From the NCBI GenBank assembly GCA_016190245.1, contig JACPQY010000086.1, positions 1 through 34,390 on the forward strand: a stretch of DNA of 34,390 nt, read 5' to 3'. The stretch is from Nitrospirota bacterium. GTDB lineage: Bacteria > JACPQY01. This document shows, piece after piece, positions 1-31,336 of the stretch. The position numbers were made by a program, and so were the translations under genes. Numbering within the stretch: the first letter of the stretch is position 1; the number at the start of each line of letters is the position of its first letter. The notes under the pieces are model-generated. The model worked only from the letters and a program-made list of their open reading frames with translations. It made no database searches and was not told the DNA's origin.

Positions 1-62
1 ACGCGCCGACCGCGCCGCGAGCCCCGCACCCTCCCAGGATTCCCCGGTTTCCCAGACGGAAG

Positions 63-122
63 CCGGTAGTCGCGGGCTTCAGCCCGCGTCCAGGGCGCAG
101 CCTGAAGGCTGCGGCTACCCGG
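63..122. repeat. Double-hairpin REP-like repeat, copy 1
   Basis: A 60-bp element bounded by inverted ends (CCGGTAG at 63 and CTACCCGG at 115) with two internal hairpins: one built on CGCGGGC/GCCCGCG (71-88) and one on GCAGCCT/AGGCTGC (97-112). The right half matches, in reverse complement and with one base of difference, the first repeat unit inside the proS gene at 18555. The architecture also matches the element at 28966-29024. It lies just past the end of the mlaE-mreD operon, where such repeats often sit. The remaining sequence of 1-238 shows no gene. Confidence 0.75.
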
Positions 123-238
123 AATAGGTTGAAAATGCTGCTCAAACCGGGCTGGAAGCTGCGCGAAACACGCGTTGTTGAACCAATCCCTCTGCTCGAG
201 CGAAGTAAGCGAGACTTGGAGTCAGGGCCGGAGATCGG

Positions 239-4379: not shown

Positions 4380-5885
4380 CTACAGACCCGGGATGAAGGG
4401 GAGGAGCGTTTTGATATCCTCGTCCGTGAAGCGCAGGCCGGCGCCGAAGAAAACCGACGAGCGCCGGCGGGCGTCGAACTCCTCGAAATAGACTTTCCGC
4501 TCCAAGAGACTGGGCTGATAGACGGGGTCGTCCCAGCCTACGTTGGCCGTCACGTAGCGCAGAAAGGTGTACTCCGCGCGAACCTTGAGGTGCGGCCCGG
4601 CGTCGCGCCCGAAGTCGAACCCCTCGGCTGAGAGCATCGCGGCCTCGCGAAAGAAATGGAGATCCATCCCCACGCCGCCGGTGTTTTCCAGAACTCCGCC
4701 GCGCAGCGTGAGGAAGCCGAACTTCTTGGCGATCTCGACTGAGAATTTCACGTCCTCCTGCGTGGCCGTGATCTCGGGGTCACCGACCGTCTGCCCATCC
4801 TTCGTGTAGTTCCGGTTCTGGCGGATGTCGGCCGAGAGCGGATCCACCACGATGCCGAACCGGAAATACTTGTCCGGCCTCGGCTGGGCCCGAATGGAGA
4901 CGTAGTTCTTCATCGTCGGCTCCGTTCCGCCTTCCACCCGCTCGGCAAGGGATACCTCGCCGCGGTACTCCACCCCGATCTTGATCCGGCTGATCTTCTC
5001 GACCGCGCCCTGCACGTCCTCGATCGTCTTCGTGAGCGAGTTGGCCAGCGCCGGATCGTTCACGAGCTTGCCGAGCGTGCCCTCGCCGCGGTCAATCTTG
5101 CCCGTGATGTTCTTCAGGCTATCCGCGGAATCGGTCAGCCGCCGGACCAATTGGTCGAACTGCTCGACGCTCCCCTGGAGCCGATCCCGGTTGGCCGCCA
5201 CGAACTCCTGCACGTCCGCGGCCGCCCGCTCGAGGCGCTCCGCGATCTCCGGCACGGACTCGCCCAGGGCCCGAGCGGTCTCCTGGAAGGATGTCATGCT
5301 GTCCGAAAGCTTGGCCCGGTTCTCCTCCACGATCTGCCGCACGGTGTGGATCGTACCGCGCAGGTCTTCCACCATCGCGCCCAGCTCCTGCTCGCCCTTG
5401 CGGCCGCCGAGCACGCGGCTCATCGCGTCCGTCACCGCCTGTATGTTGTCCGCGATGGACGCGAGCTTCCCCGTGATCTCGTCCAGACTCACCGAGATCC
5501 CCACGCGTTTGATCTCACCCCCGTCCTCGATCGGCGGGGCCTTATCCGTGCAGTCCCGGATTTCCAGGTAGCGGTCGCCCAGAATGCCGGTCGTCTTGGC
5601 GGTCACCAGACAGTCCTCCGTGAGCCGGACGTCCTCTCGAACCCGCACGTGCACGCGGGCGCGGTTCGCGACGAGGTCGATCGACTCAATCTGGCCGATC
5701 GGAACGCCCGCCATCTTGACGAAGCCGTTCGAGCGCAGACCCTCGGCGGATTCCAGCGTCACGCTCACGCGATAGCCGCCGCGCCAGACGCCTCGCTGGC
5801 CGGTCAACTTGAGTGCGGACCACAGCAGGACCACGAGGAGCACCGCCACGAACAGCCCCACTCTCACTTCCGGTCGGATTTTCAC
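4380..5885 (-). CDS. mlaD: MlaD-like MCE protein with long helical region and probable C-terminal beta-barrel
   Basis: A 501-aa lipid-binding MCE protein anchored in the inner membrane. From GTG 5885 the order is: KIRPEVRVG start, membrane helix at about residues 8-24, one MCE domain at about 35-110 (RSNGFVKMAGVPIGQIESIDL, GILGDRYLEI), a long amphipathic helical region at about 125-300 ending in ITGKIDRGEGTLGKLVNDPAL, then about 170 residues of alternating polar/hydrophobic strands resembling an outer-membrane barrel. E. coli MlaD is only about 180 aa; long barrel-fused forms are known from diderm Firmicutes. The upstream ATG 5921 would overlap mlaF by 26 nt; GTG 5885, 10 nt after the mlaF stop, is preferred because it begins at the conserved part. 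No mlaC or mlaB is present, which fits a single protein bridging the envelope. Confidence 0.85.
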   Translation of the reverse strand: MKIRPEVRVGLFVAVLLVVLLWSALKLTGQRGVWRGGYRVSVTLESAEGLRSNGFVKMAGVPIGQIESIDLVANRARVHVRVREDVRLTEDCLVTAKTTGILGDRYLEIRDCTDKAPPIEDGGEIKRVGISVSLDEITGKLASIADNIQAVTDAMSRVLGGRKGEQELGAMVEDLRGTIHTVRQIVEENRAKLSDSMTSFQETARALGESVPEIAERLERAAADVQEFVAANRDRLQGSVEQFDQLVRRLTDSADSLKNITGKIDRGEGTLGKLVNDPALANSLTKTIEDVQGAVEKISRIKIGVEYRGEVSLAERVEGGTEPTMKNYVSIRAQPRPDKYFRFGIVVDPLSADIRQNRNYTKDGQTVGDPEITATQEDVKFSVEIAKKFGFLTLRGGVLENTGGVGMDLHFFREAAMLSAEGFDFGRDAGPHLKVRAEYTFLRYVTANVGWDDPVYQPSLLERKVYFEEFDARRRSSVFFGAGLRFTDEDIKTLLPFIPGL

Positions 5886-17418: not shown

Positions 17419-17772
17419 ATGAGCCGCTACGACGCGCTCCACAAGAAGTACCTGCAAGATGCAGAGAGGCTTTTGCGGAAGCGGGACTATCCGCAGGCCT
17501 CCGAGAAACTGTGGGGGGCTACCGCGGAGATGATCAAGTCCATCGCGGAACGCAGGCGGTGGAAACACCACAGCCACCGCGATTTGCTGGTGGCCATGAG
17601 TCGTCTGGCCGAGGAGTCCGGTGGCCCCGGAATGAGAACCCTATTTGCATACGCTCAAATGTTGCACGCCAATTTCTACGAGGACTTCATGTCACCCCCC
17701 GTGGCAACCCAATATGCACGGGACGTCAGGCGTCTGATCGTGAAGTTGCAGTCGCTCAACGGGCAACCGTAG
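17419..17772 (+). CDS. PaREP1/HEPN-like small helical protein
   Basis: A 117-aa all-helical protein. The segment YLQDAERLLRKRDYPQASEK followed by LWGATAEMIKSIAE, then SHRDLL and LHANFYEDF, matches the PaREP1 family, best known from archaea and related to HEPN folds. HEPN proteins often work with nucleotidyltransferase partners or as RNases, but the Rx4-6H motif of HEPN RNases is not evident and no NTase is adjacent, so no function is assigned. It lies between ispG (34 nt upstream) and proS (25 nt downstream), an odd place for such a gene, and has its own -10-like box. Confidence 0.65.
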   Translation: MSRYDALHKKYLQDAERLLRKRDYPQASEKLWGATAEMIKSIAERRRWKHHSHRDLLVAMSRLAEESGGPGMRTLFAYAQMLHANFYEDFMSPPVATQYARDVRRLIVKLQSLNGQP

Positions 17773-17797: not shown

Positions 17798-19285
17798 GTG
17801 GCATCGAACTCCCACTCCCCCCGATTCGTCCGCTGGAGCGGCTATTTCGCGCCGACGCTCCGCGAGGAGCCCGGCGACGCGGAAGTGGTCAGCCACCGCC
17901 TCATGCTCAAGGCGGGCATGATCCGAAAGGTGGCGGCGGGCATCTATGACCTGCTCCCCCTCGGCCTGCGCGGTCTGCGCAAGGTCGAGGCGATCGTGCG
18001 GGAGGAAATGGACCGGGCGGGCGCCCACGAGGTGCTCCTACCGATGGTCACGCCCGCCGAGCTCTGGCAGGAAACGGGCCGCTGGGACGTCTACGGCAAG
18101 GAACTCCTCCGATTCCAAGATCGGCACGAGCGCTGGTTCTGCCTGGGGCCGACCCACGAGGAGGTCATCACCGACCTCGTCCGCCGCGAGGTGCGCTCCC
18201 ACCGCCAGTTGCCCATCACGCTCTACCAGATCCAGACCAAGTTCCGCGACGAAGTGCGCCCCCGATTCGGTCTCATGCGCGGCCGGGAATTCATGATGAA
18301 AGACGCCTACAGCTTCGACCGCTCAGACCCCGAGGCCGAGGCCACCTACGGCCGGATGCGCGAGGCGTATGACCGTGTCTTCGCGCGCTGCGGCCTGCGG
18401 TTCACCAGCGTCGAGGCCGCCACGGGCGCGATTGGCGGGTCGTTCTCCCACGAGTACATGGTGCTGGCGGAAAGCGGGGAGGACCAGACCGTGTCCTGCT
18501 CCAAGTGCGGATTCGCGGCCAACATCGAATTTGCCGCCACCGCCCCCATCCCATCCGGTAGCCGCAGCCTTCAGGCTGCCTCCGATGCGCATCCCGGTGG
18601 CCGCACCCTTCAGGGTACGCCTGATGCGCTTCCCGGTAGCCGCACCCTTCAGGGTGCGTCTGCGTCTTCGGACGCGGGCTCCCTGTCCGCCCCCCGGCGG
18701 AAAATCCCGCGCCTACCCGGTGAGCCTTCTCCGTCGCCCATCGAACCACCCGCCCCCTGTCCCAAGTGCTCCGCTCCCCTCTCCCTCACCCGCGGCATCG
18801 AGGTCGGCCACGTGTTCAAGCTGGGAGAGAAGTACTCCAAAGCCATGAAAGCCACCTTCCTCGACGCCGAGGGCAAGGAGCGCACGATGGTGATGGGCTG
18901 CTACGGCATCGGCATCGGCCGGACCTTCGCCGCCGCGATCGAACAGGGCCACGACGAGAACGGTCCCATCCTCCCCCCCTCCATCGCCCCCTTCCACGTG
19001 CTCCTCACGACGGTGGCGCAGGACCCCCGCGCCCTGGAGGCCGCCGAGTCGCTGGCCAAGGAGCTCAACGGCGCCGGGATCGAGGTCCTCTGGGACGACC
19101 GCGACGAGCGCGCGGGAGTGAAGTTCAAGGACGGCGATCTAACAGGCATCCCCGTGAAGATCGTGGTGGGCAAACGGTTCATCGAAAAAGGCACCATCGA
19201 GATCAAGCCCCGCCGAGACGGCGCCGCGTGCGAGGTGCCGCCCTCCGCTGCGCTCGCCGCGGCCCACGAGTTCCTTGCTCGATAG
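17798..19285 (+). CDS. proS: Prolyl-tRNA synthetase lacking the editing (INS) domain
   Basis: A 495-aa class II synthetase that charges tRNA-Pro. Motif 2 region FRDEVRPRFGLMRGREFMMK and motif 3 MGCYGIGIGRTFAAAIEQ (about residue 366) are intact, as is the anticodon-binding domain (PFHVLLTTVAQ, EVLWDDRDERAGVKFKD). Full bacterial enzymes are about 570 aa, with a YbaK-like editing domain of about 180 residues between AANIE and RGIEVGH. Here this interval is about 90 residues of Ser/Pro/Gly-rich sequence, encoded largely by REP-like repeats (18555-18720), flanked by two CxxC pairs (C234/C237 and C321/C324). Editing of Ala-tRNA-Pro in cis is therefore lost. The start is GTG 17798, with no strong ribosome-binding site. 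Confidence 0.95.
   Translation: MASNSHSPRFVRWSGYFAPTLREEPGDAEVVSHRLMLKAGMIRKVAAGIYDLLPLGLRGLRKVEAIVREEMDRAGAHEVLLPMVTPAELWQETGRWDVYGKELLRFQDRHERWFCLGPTHEEVITDLVRREVRSHRQLPITLYQIQTKFRDEVRPRFGLMRGREFMMKDAYSFDRSDPEAEATYGRMREAYDRVFARCGLRFTSVEAATGAIGGSFSHEYMVLAESGEDQTVSCSKCGFAANIEFAATAPIPSGSRSLQAASDAHPGGRTLQGTPDALPGSRTLQGASASSDAGSLSAPRRKIPRLPGEPSPSPIEPPAPCPKCSAPLSLTRGIEVGHVFKLGEKYSKAMKATFLDAEGKERTMVMGCYGIGIGRTFAAAIEQGHDENGPILPPSIAPFHVLLTTVAQDPRALEAAESLAKELNGAGIEVLWDDRDERAGVKFKDGDLTGIPVKIVVGKRFIEKGTIEIKPRRDGAACEVPPSAALAAAHEFLAR
18555..18720 (+). repeat. REP-like repeat array inside proS, three 39-bp units
   Basis: Units begin at 18555, 18594 and 18633 with CCGGTAGCCGCA-type starts; the period is exactly 39 bp, i.e. 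13 codons. The peptide repeats read SGSRSLQAASDAH, PGGRTLQGTPDAL and PGSRTLQGASASS. Units 1 and 3 hold 7-bp perfect hairpins (GCAGCCT/AGGCTGC, GCACCCT/AGGGTGC). The array continues through GCGTCTTCGGACGC to CGCCTACCCGG at 18710-18720, an inverted copy of the left end. Unit 1 is nearly identical, in reverse complement, to the intergenic element at 98-122. The frame stays open across all of it and re-enters conserved ProRS sequence. Confidence 0.88.
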
Positions 19286-19973
19286 GATCATCCTCGCCCT
19301 CGACACGCCTTCCCTCCGGCAGGCGCTCGAGTGGGTCGCCTCGGTCGAGAGCCGCGTCAACTTCTTCAAGATCGGGGTTGAGCTCTTCTCCGCCGAAGGC
19401 CCTCACGCCGTGGAGAAGCTGAAAGAGCGGGGCCTGCGAATCTTCCTCGACCTGAAATACCACGACGTGCCCGCCACGGTGGCCAAGGCGTGCCGGGCCG
19501 TCGCTCCGCTCGGGCTGGACCTCCTCAACGTCCACGCTCTGGGCGGCGAGGCAATGATGCACGCGGCCGCCGAGACACTGCGGGACGACTGCGCTCGGCT
19601 CCGCGTCCCCGCCCCGAAACTGATCGCCGTGACCCTCCTGACCTCCCTCGAATCGGCCGACCTCGAGGCAACGGGCATCTCGCGCCCGATGACCGAAACG
19701 GTCGAGAGGCTGGCCCAGTTGGCGCGCGCGAGCGGGCTTGATGGCGTCGTCTGCTCCCCCCATGAAATCACCCTCGTCCGGAGGGCCTGCGGAGATGACT
19801 TCCTCCTCGTCACACCCGGCATCCGCATGCCGGATTCCCCGCCCGACGATCAGAAACGCAAAGCCACGCCCCGCGAGGCGCTCGCATGGGGCGCCGACTA
19901 CCTCGTCCTCGGCCGGCCCGTCTGGCAGTCCCCCGACCCCGCCGCCGCCCTCGACCGCCTCGCCGCGCCGTGA
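19275..19973 (+). CDS. pyrF: Orotidine 5'-phosphate decarboxylase
   Basis: A 232-aa TIM-barrel enzyme of pyrimidine synthesis (OMP to UMP). Key motifs: IILALDTPS near the start, FKIGVELF, and the catalytic LDLKYHDVPATV with the Lys-Asp tetrad at about residues 60-65; then VVCSPHEI and LLVTPGIRMP near the phosphate site. It starts at TTG 19275, inside the end of proS (11-nt overlap), and its stop overlaps the next gene's GTG, so it is translationally coupled on both sides. Confidence 0.95.
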   Translation: MLDRIILALDTPSLRQALEWVASVESRVNFFKIGVELFSAEGPHAVEKLKERGLRIFLDLKYHDVPATVAKACRAVAPLGLDLLNVHALGGEAMMHAAAETLRDDCARLRVPAPKLIAVTLLTSLESADLEATGISRPMTETVERLAQLARASGLDGVVCSPHEITLVRRACGDDFLLVTPGIRMPDSPPDDQKRKATPREALAWGADYLVLGRPVWQSPDPAAALDRLAAP

Positions 19974-28909: not shown

Positions 28910-29066
28910 TAGGCTCTGTTTGAAAACGACCTTAAGGGGATCGACCATGGGCAGGACGGTTCTTCGTAGGGGCGGGTCCTTGGACCCGCCCGAGGGGAGG
29001 GAGGGTGCAAGCACCCTCCCCTACAAGGATTGCGGTGGCCGGCGAAGGGTTTTCAAACAGAGCCTA
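28910..29066. mobile_element. 157-bp MITE with 18-bp perfect terminal inverted repeats
   Basis: The ends TAGGCTCTGTTTGAAAAC (28910-28927) and its exact reverse complement (29049-29066) bound a non-coding insert. The outer TA on each side may be a duplicated TA target. There is no transposase, so mobilisation would be in trans. The core holds a double-hairpin repeat (28966-29024). The insertion lies between the vapC-like gene and a lipoprotein gene. Confidence 0.85.
28966..29024. repeat. Double-hairpin REP-like repeat nested in the MITE
   Basis: Inverted ends GTAGGGG/CCCCTAC enclose two perfect 10-bp hairpins: GGGCGGGTCC/GGACCCGCCC (28970-28991, TT loop) and GGGAGGGTGC/GCACCCTCCC (28999-29020, AA loop). 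Size and layout match the element at 63-122, with different stem sequences. Confidence 0.75.
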
Positions 29067-29695: not shown

Positions 29696-29815
29696 CCCGC
29701 AAGCAGGCGGCGGAGTTTGAAGGGGGCGGACCCCCATACTACCACCCCCTGCCATGACGCGACGCCCTTGTGCAGGGGGACGTTGTTTCCTAGATTGCAT
29801 TGTGACTCGGCTGTG

Positions 29816-29915
29816 ATTCGGGGGACAGTATGCCTATTGTCTTCGCCTCCGGCCGGAGAAGGGACCGCCGGGCTGCGGTGTGAAGAGAGAAATGAATATC
29901 CTGTCCCCGGATTCC
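29816..29915. repeat. ~100-bp inverted-repeat element, copy A
   Basis: The left end ATTCGGGGGACAGTATGCC and the right end GATATTCATTT-type sequence (ending CTGTCCCCGGATTC) are imperfect inverted repeats. A central CTCCGGCCGGAG palindrome (about 29847-29858) is shared with copy B at 31231. No ORF. The right end touches the stop of the AAA/DUF4143 gene. It fills most of the gene-free stretch 29696-29914. Confidence 0.65.
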
Positions 29916-31195: not shown

Positions 31196-31230
31196 TTGCC
31201 GCACCCCTTTCCCGTCCGATCCGGGGTGAT

Positions 31231-31336
31231 ATTCCGGGGACAGCATACCTATTTTCCTGGTCTCCGGCCGGAGGACAGAACACCGAGCGTCCCGGGTTCG
31301 GAGTCAAGGCAAAAACTAGCATACTGTCCCCGGAAA
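31231..31336. repeat. ~100-bp inverted-repeat element, copy B
   Basis: The ends ATTCCGGGGACAGCATACC (31231) and CTAGCATACTGTCCCCGGAA (31317-31336) are imperfect inverted repeats of about 20-24 bp. The centre TCTCCGGCCGGAG is shared with copy A. Same orientation as copy A, on the other side of the AAA/DUF4143 gene. No ORF. Confidence 0.7.

Follow-up and report, generated by a model that had tools for sequence, protein, structure and literature searches.

Small palindromes that are translated in frame in essential genes, and tolerated there, are best known from the Rickettsia palindromic elements (RPEs), a parallel drawn in part from the report on GTAG REPs cited below. Intragenic GTAG REPs, including some in tRNA synthetase genes, were reported in 2013 (BMC Genomics; PMC3733652); the REP clusters encode 43-82 amino acids, and inserts were argued to be possibly neutral in flexible linkers. 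The same report grouped RPE-4 and RPE-6 of R. conorii with CGTC repeats. A functional editing domain of prolyl-tRNA synthetase (ProRS) is missing in 34% of bacteria, many of which rely on ProXp-ala (PMC3973320). Translated palindromes are already known and ProRS lacking the INS domain are common, and the insert described here, in the proS gene of a Nitrospirota genome, adds a case.

The insert resembles the intragenic GTAG REPs of PMC3733652 in its GTAG/GTGG tag, its short stem and loop, its dispersed or paired units and its in-frame position in a housekeeping gene, tRNA synthetase genes being among those hit in both. It differs from them in coming from a poorly sampled phylum, in lying at the INS site, and in having three tandem units at an exact period of 13 codons together with a second repeat module. 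As with the RPEs, small palindromes would be translated in an essential gene and tolerated, whereas their sequence is unrelated to that of the RPEs and they belong to another tag class.

Composition of the proS insert

The contig analyzed (34,390 nt, hereafter the window) was compared with one other genome of the phylum, G001, which belongs to the same family but another genus and was the sole relative found by searches from family to phylum level. The features discussed below are as follows.

63-121, no strand assigned: REP pair in opposite orientations, REPIN-like, of the same family as the proS REPs, at the contig start
16329-17381: ispG homology, upstream of proS
17798-19285, + strand: proS, bacterial-type ProRS without INS; 495 aa, GTG start; TIGR00409 and NF006625, no PF04073
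18555-18722, + strand: in-frame repeat insert, approximately residues 254-308, lacking in proS of the relative and framed by inverted CCGGTAG...CTACCCGG
18557-18580, + strand: REP unit 1, with GTAG tag, stem and TTCA loop; 23 nt identical to the REP at 97-119
18596-18619, + strand: REP unit 2, GTGG tag, 39 bp past unit 1
18635-18658, + strand: REP unit 3, GTAG tag; 23-mer identical to the REP in mtaB (contig C50 of the window genome, 44493-44515)
about 18646-18717, + strand: second module, likewise a dispersed repeat, whose end is an inverted REP terminus (CTAC at 18713-18716)
19275-19973, + strand: pyrF, 3' neighbour of proS in both genomes

The gene order ispG-proS-pyrF is common to both genomes. 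A gene of the PaREP1/PaREP8 family (PF05942), whose name comes from archaea, lies between ispG and proS in the window (17419-17772), whereas ispG directly adjoins proS in the relative.

The open frame runs free of stops across the whole of proS, insert included. In family-model searches the 495-aa product scored 580 bits against TIGR00409 and 629 bits against NF006625, and Pfam found the class II core and the anticodon-binding domain and nothing else; with both domains present and the family model above its cut-off, the protein is a bacterial-type ProRS. As the original prediction had it, the editing domain is absent from this enzyme: the YbaK/INS domain (PF04073), whose site lies between motifs 2 and 3, had no match in the window ProRS. 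In this the protein is like other bacterial-type ProRS that lack INS between these motifs, such as that of Caulobacter.

The insert measures 166-168 bp and is composed entirely of dispersed repeats; divergence of the relative's linker leaves a few bases of uncertainty at the insert edges. The predicted in-frame array of 39-bp period between AANIE and RGIEVGH was recovered by Tandem Repeats Finder as the one array in the whole window (18555-18657, period 39, 2.6 copies, 84% matches, no indels). In the protein it is flanked by CSKCGFAANIE and CPKC...RGIEVGH and so separates the two CxxC pairs, within a linker of 92 residues counted from CSKCGFAANIE to RGIEVGH. The 24-mer GGTAGCCGCACCCTTCAGGGTGCG, allowed up to 3 mismatches, matched the window four times (18557, 18596 and 18635 on the + strand, 96-119 on the - strand) and never in 100 shuffles, so the array core is not due to chance. 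The likeness of an array unit to a palindrome at 98-122 also proved correct, positions 18557-18579 and the reverse complement of 97-119 sharing all 23 nt. The 3' module recurs at five more places in the window genome at 90-95% identity (C82:6201, C82:7137, C82:66, C44:1543 and C44:1), and blastn of the insert matched 29 places in this genome and, in the relative, 47. The whole insert is bounded by GTAG and CTAC in inverted orientation (18558-18561 and 18713-18716); since the inverted ends CCGGTAG (from 18555) and CTACCCGG (to 18720) enclose it and the 3' module ends in a REP terminus, we take these ends as the element borders. Three of the six frames of the insert are stop-free, the frame used among them.

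An AlphaFold2 model built from 44 sequences averaged a pLDDT of 84.5, and most core blocks exceeded 90. The REP-encoded residues, 253-312, fell below 50 and formed the sole long stretch that low, so that the insert looks like a disordered loop attached to a ProRS core predicted to be intact. This agrees with the earlier description of the insert as a linker rich in Ser, Gly and Pro that lies between two CxxC pairs. At the RNA level, the coding-strand insert folds better than all of 200 shuffles (z = -5.0), with a stem that closes both of its ends, and REPs are thought to work at the RNA level elsewhere (PMC3733652). Such a fold could point to co-option, with the translated linker or an mRNA hairpin tuning ProRS folding, partner binding or translation. 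Palindromes fold stably in any case, however, and REPs also occur in the unrelated proteins encoded by mtaB and gcvT in this lineage; the insert may have an RNA-level effect, a strong fold being expected of any palindrome, but we regard co-option as unlikely.

REPs in the two genomes and in other genes

The units in proS share the traits of the GTAG-tagged REP superfamily: a GTAG or GTGG tag, CCGC and a stem with a TTCA centre, in many dispersed copies that are largely extragenic and often form inverted pairs. The core, at up to one mismatch, occurs at 46 places in the window genome as against 1 for a reversed control pattern, and at 141 places in the relative as against 0 for the control. Pairs in opposite orientation are often 30 bp apart, and most copies lack a long spanning open reading frame. 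The view that a palindromic repeat of extragenic origin now forms coding sequence in proS was upheld. A longer repeat that contains REPs occupies the first 180 nt of the window; contigs C79, C45, C22 and C31 start or end with nearly the same sequence. Two further repeats were observed in the window. Perfect 18-nt terminal inverted repeats at 28910-29066 surround a pair of palindromes that carry GTAG tags but are of a different type (28966 on the + strand, 29024 on the - strand) in what looks like a small MITE, and a 65-nt direct repeat of 75% identity lies at 29809-29873 and 31224-31288.

Eight Y1_Tnp genes were found in the window genome. The three that were tested resemble the model NF047646 for REP-associated tyrosine transposases, scoring 58-64 bits where its cut-off is 80, and no REP of the proS type was found within 1.5 kb of the RAYT-like genes of this genome.

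REPs also lie in frame in other genes. In mtaB of the window genome (L002:474-2222, - strand, contig C50; TIGR01579 at 356 bits, just below its cut-off), a REP at C50:44493-44515 lies between the UPF0004 and radical SAM domains and is read in the same frame as the proS REP, giving SRTLQGAS; the relative's mtaB has no REP. The gcvT gene of the relative (L168:1531-2919, - strand, contig C5) contains in-frame sequence derived from REPs at two positions, with gcvT family matches flanking the first insert on both sides. A third locus, L239 (contig C44 of the relative, 5321-5426), carries a REP array of 39-bp period in frame in a long open reading frame, with the same 13-codon period as proS. The tandem period is 39 in proS and L239 (in L239 by eye) versus 43 and 79 in arrays without a long spanning open reading frame; as a mark of selection this is suggestive only, the numbers being small. 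Several REP-spanning open reading frames without a Pfam match were left out of the count of decorated genes. Likewise set aside were hemB and genes for an NHL-repeat protein, a cytochrome and an HMG-CoA lyase-like protein, in which the REP is N-terminal of the domain and may precede the true start. We conclude that proS is one among several REP-decorated genes in this lineage and no special replacement.

These loci also bear on the integrity of the assembly. Repeats break this assembly, including at the REP-bearing repeat of window 1-180, and several contigs start or end in a common repeat of this kind; repeats could in this way have been misjoined into proS of a metagenome-assembled genome. 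Against such an artefact, two halves of one gene flank the array in the same frame, the order of the neighbouring genes matches that of the relative, the array is short, and like insertions affect further genes as well as a second genome. We consider a misassembly very improbable.

Order of INS loss and REP gain

The ProRS of the relative is 426 residues long and 71% identical to the window ProRS. Its linker, AANVELTAGTKAESAPVASAGPCPKC, comprises 33 residues and contains neither INS nor a REP array, compared with 92 residues in the window protein and 171-185 in INS-bearing relatives. Linkers were surveyed by alignment at 80 named loci, 79 of them full-length; a first survey by regular expression missed many loci and was superseded. 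INS was lacking at 33 of the 79 full-length loci, in a sample that is tilted toward INS-less forms because the query ProRS itself has no INS. In the tree, the window ProRS pairs with that of the relative with full support, and the rows closest to this pair by path are INS-bearing. INS is present in one of two Saganbacteria sisters and absent from the other, and its loss is therefore recurrent.

The array lies at the attachment point of INS, and INS is absent, as would be expected if the domain had been directly replaced, with loss and repeat gain as one event and the repeats filling the scar. This part of the original prediction did not hold: the relative has likewise lost INS yet has a short linker free of repeats, and with the two ProRS fully paired beside INS-bearing rows, a single INS loss before their split is the simplest account. 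The alignment with the relative therefore places INS loss earlier and REP entry, into an already existing linker, later, and on these sequences the two events are separate in time, with the insertion bracketed by one distant relative in a comparison of two genomes of the phylum. Direct replacement is highly unlikely.

We propose instead, with a probability of roughly 0.85, that a composite cluster of GTAG-tagged REPs entered, in frame, the interdomain linker of a proS that was already without INS. These REPs would be small non-autonomous elements, probably mobilised by Y1/HUH transposases of the RAYT type. The 39-bp (13-codon) unit would then have expanded by tandem duplication, with selection keeping the frame, and the insert would be translated as about 55 disordered residues. 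Since these residues would leave the synthetase core intact, the insert would be tolerated and is most likely near-neutral.

Editing of Ala-tRNAPro

The PF04073 family spans INS, YbaK and ProXp-ala. Searching with this model found nothing in the window genome (84.8% complete) and nothing in the relative (97% complete); of 14 control genomes, 12 were positive. Caulobacter, by comparison, retains a truncated mini-INS and relies on ProXp-ala, whereas a PF04073 protein was found in neither genome here. The lack of a match in both genomes leaves rescue by INS, YbaK or ProXp-ala proteins unsupported, and the suggestion that ProXp-ala or YbaK compensates in this organism was not borne out by the search. 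A divergent homologue or incomplete assembly may lie behind the missing match. We raise, tentatively, the possibility that in this lineage INS-superfamily proteins edit Ala-tRNAPro neither in cis nor in trans, and that it would tolerate Pro-to-Ala mistranslation, have a ProRS that discriminates better at the active site or use an unknown editor, its proteins being repeatedly lengthened by translated REP arrays whose 13-codon period is kept inside genes.

The proS insert is a clear case of mobile palindromes becoming protein in an essential enzyme, accompanied by a relative that lacks the array and by a predicted fold, and two or more other housekeeping genes show the same process in this scarcely sampled phylum. 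A more interesting lead than the insert itself is that Ala-tRNAPro editing may be lacking: the apparently missing editing homologue makes this lineage a testable case of either natural tolerance of mistranslation or a more selective ProRS.
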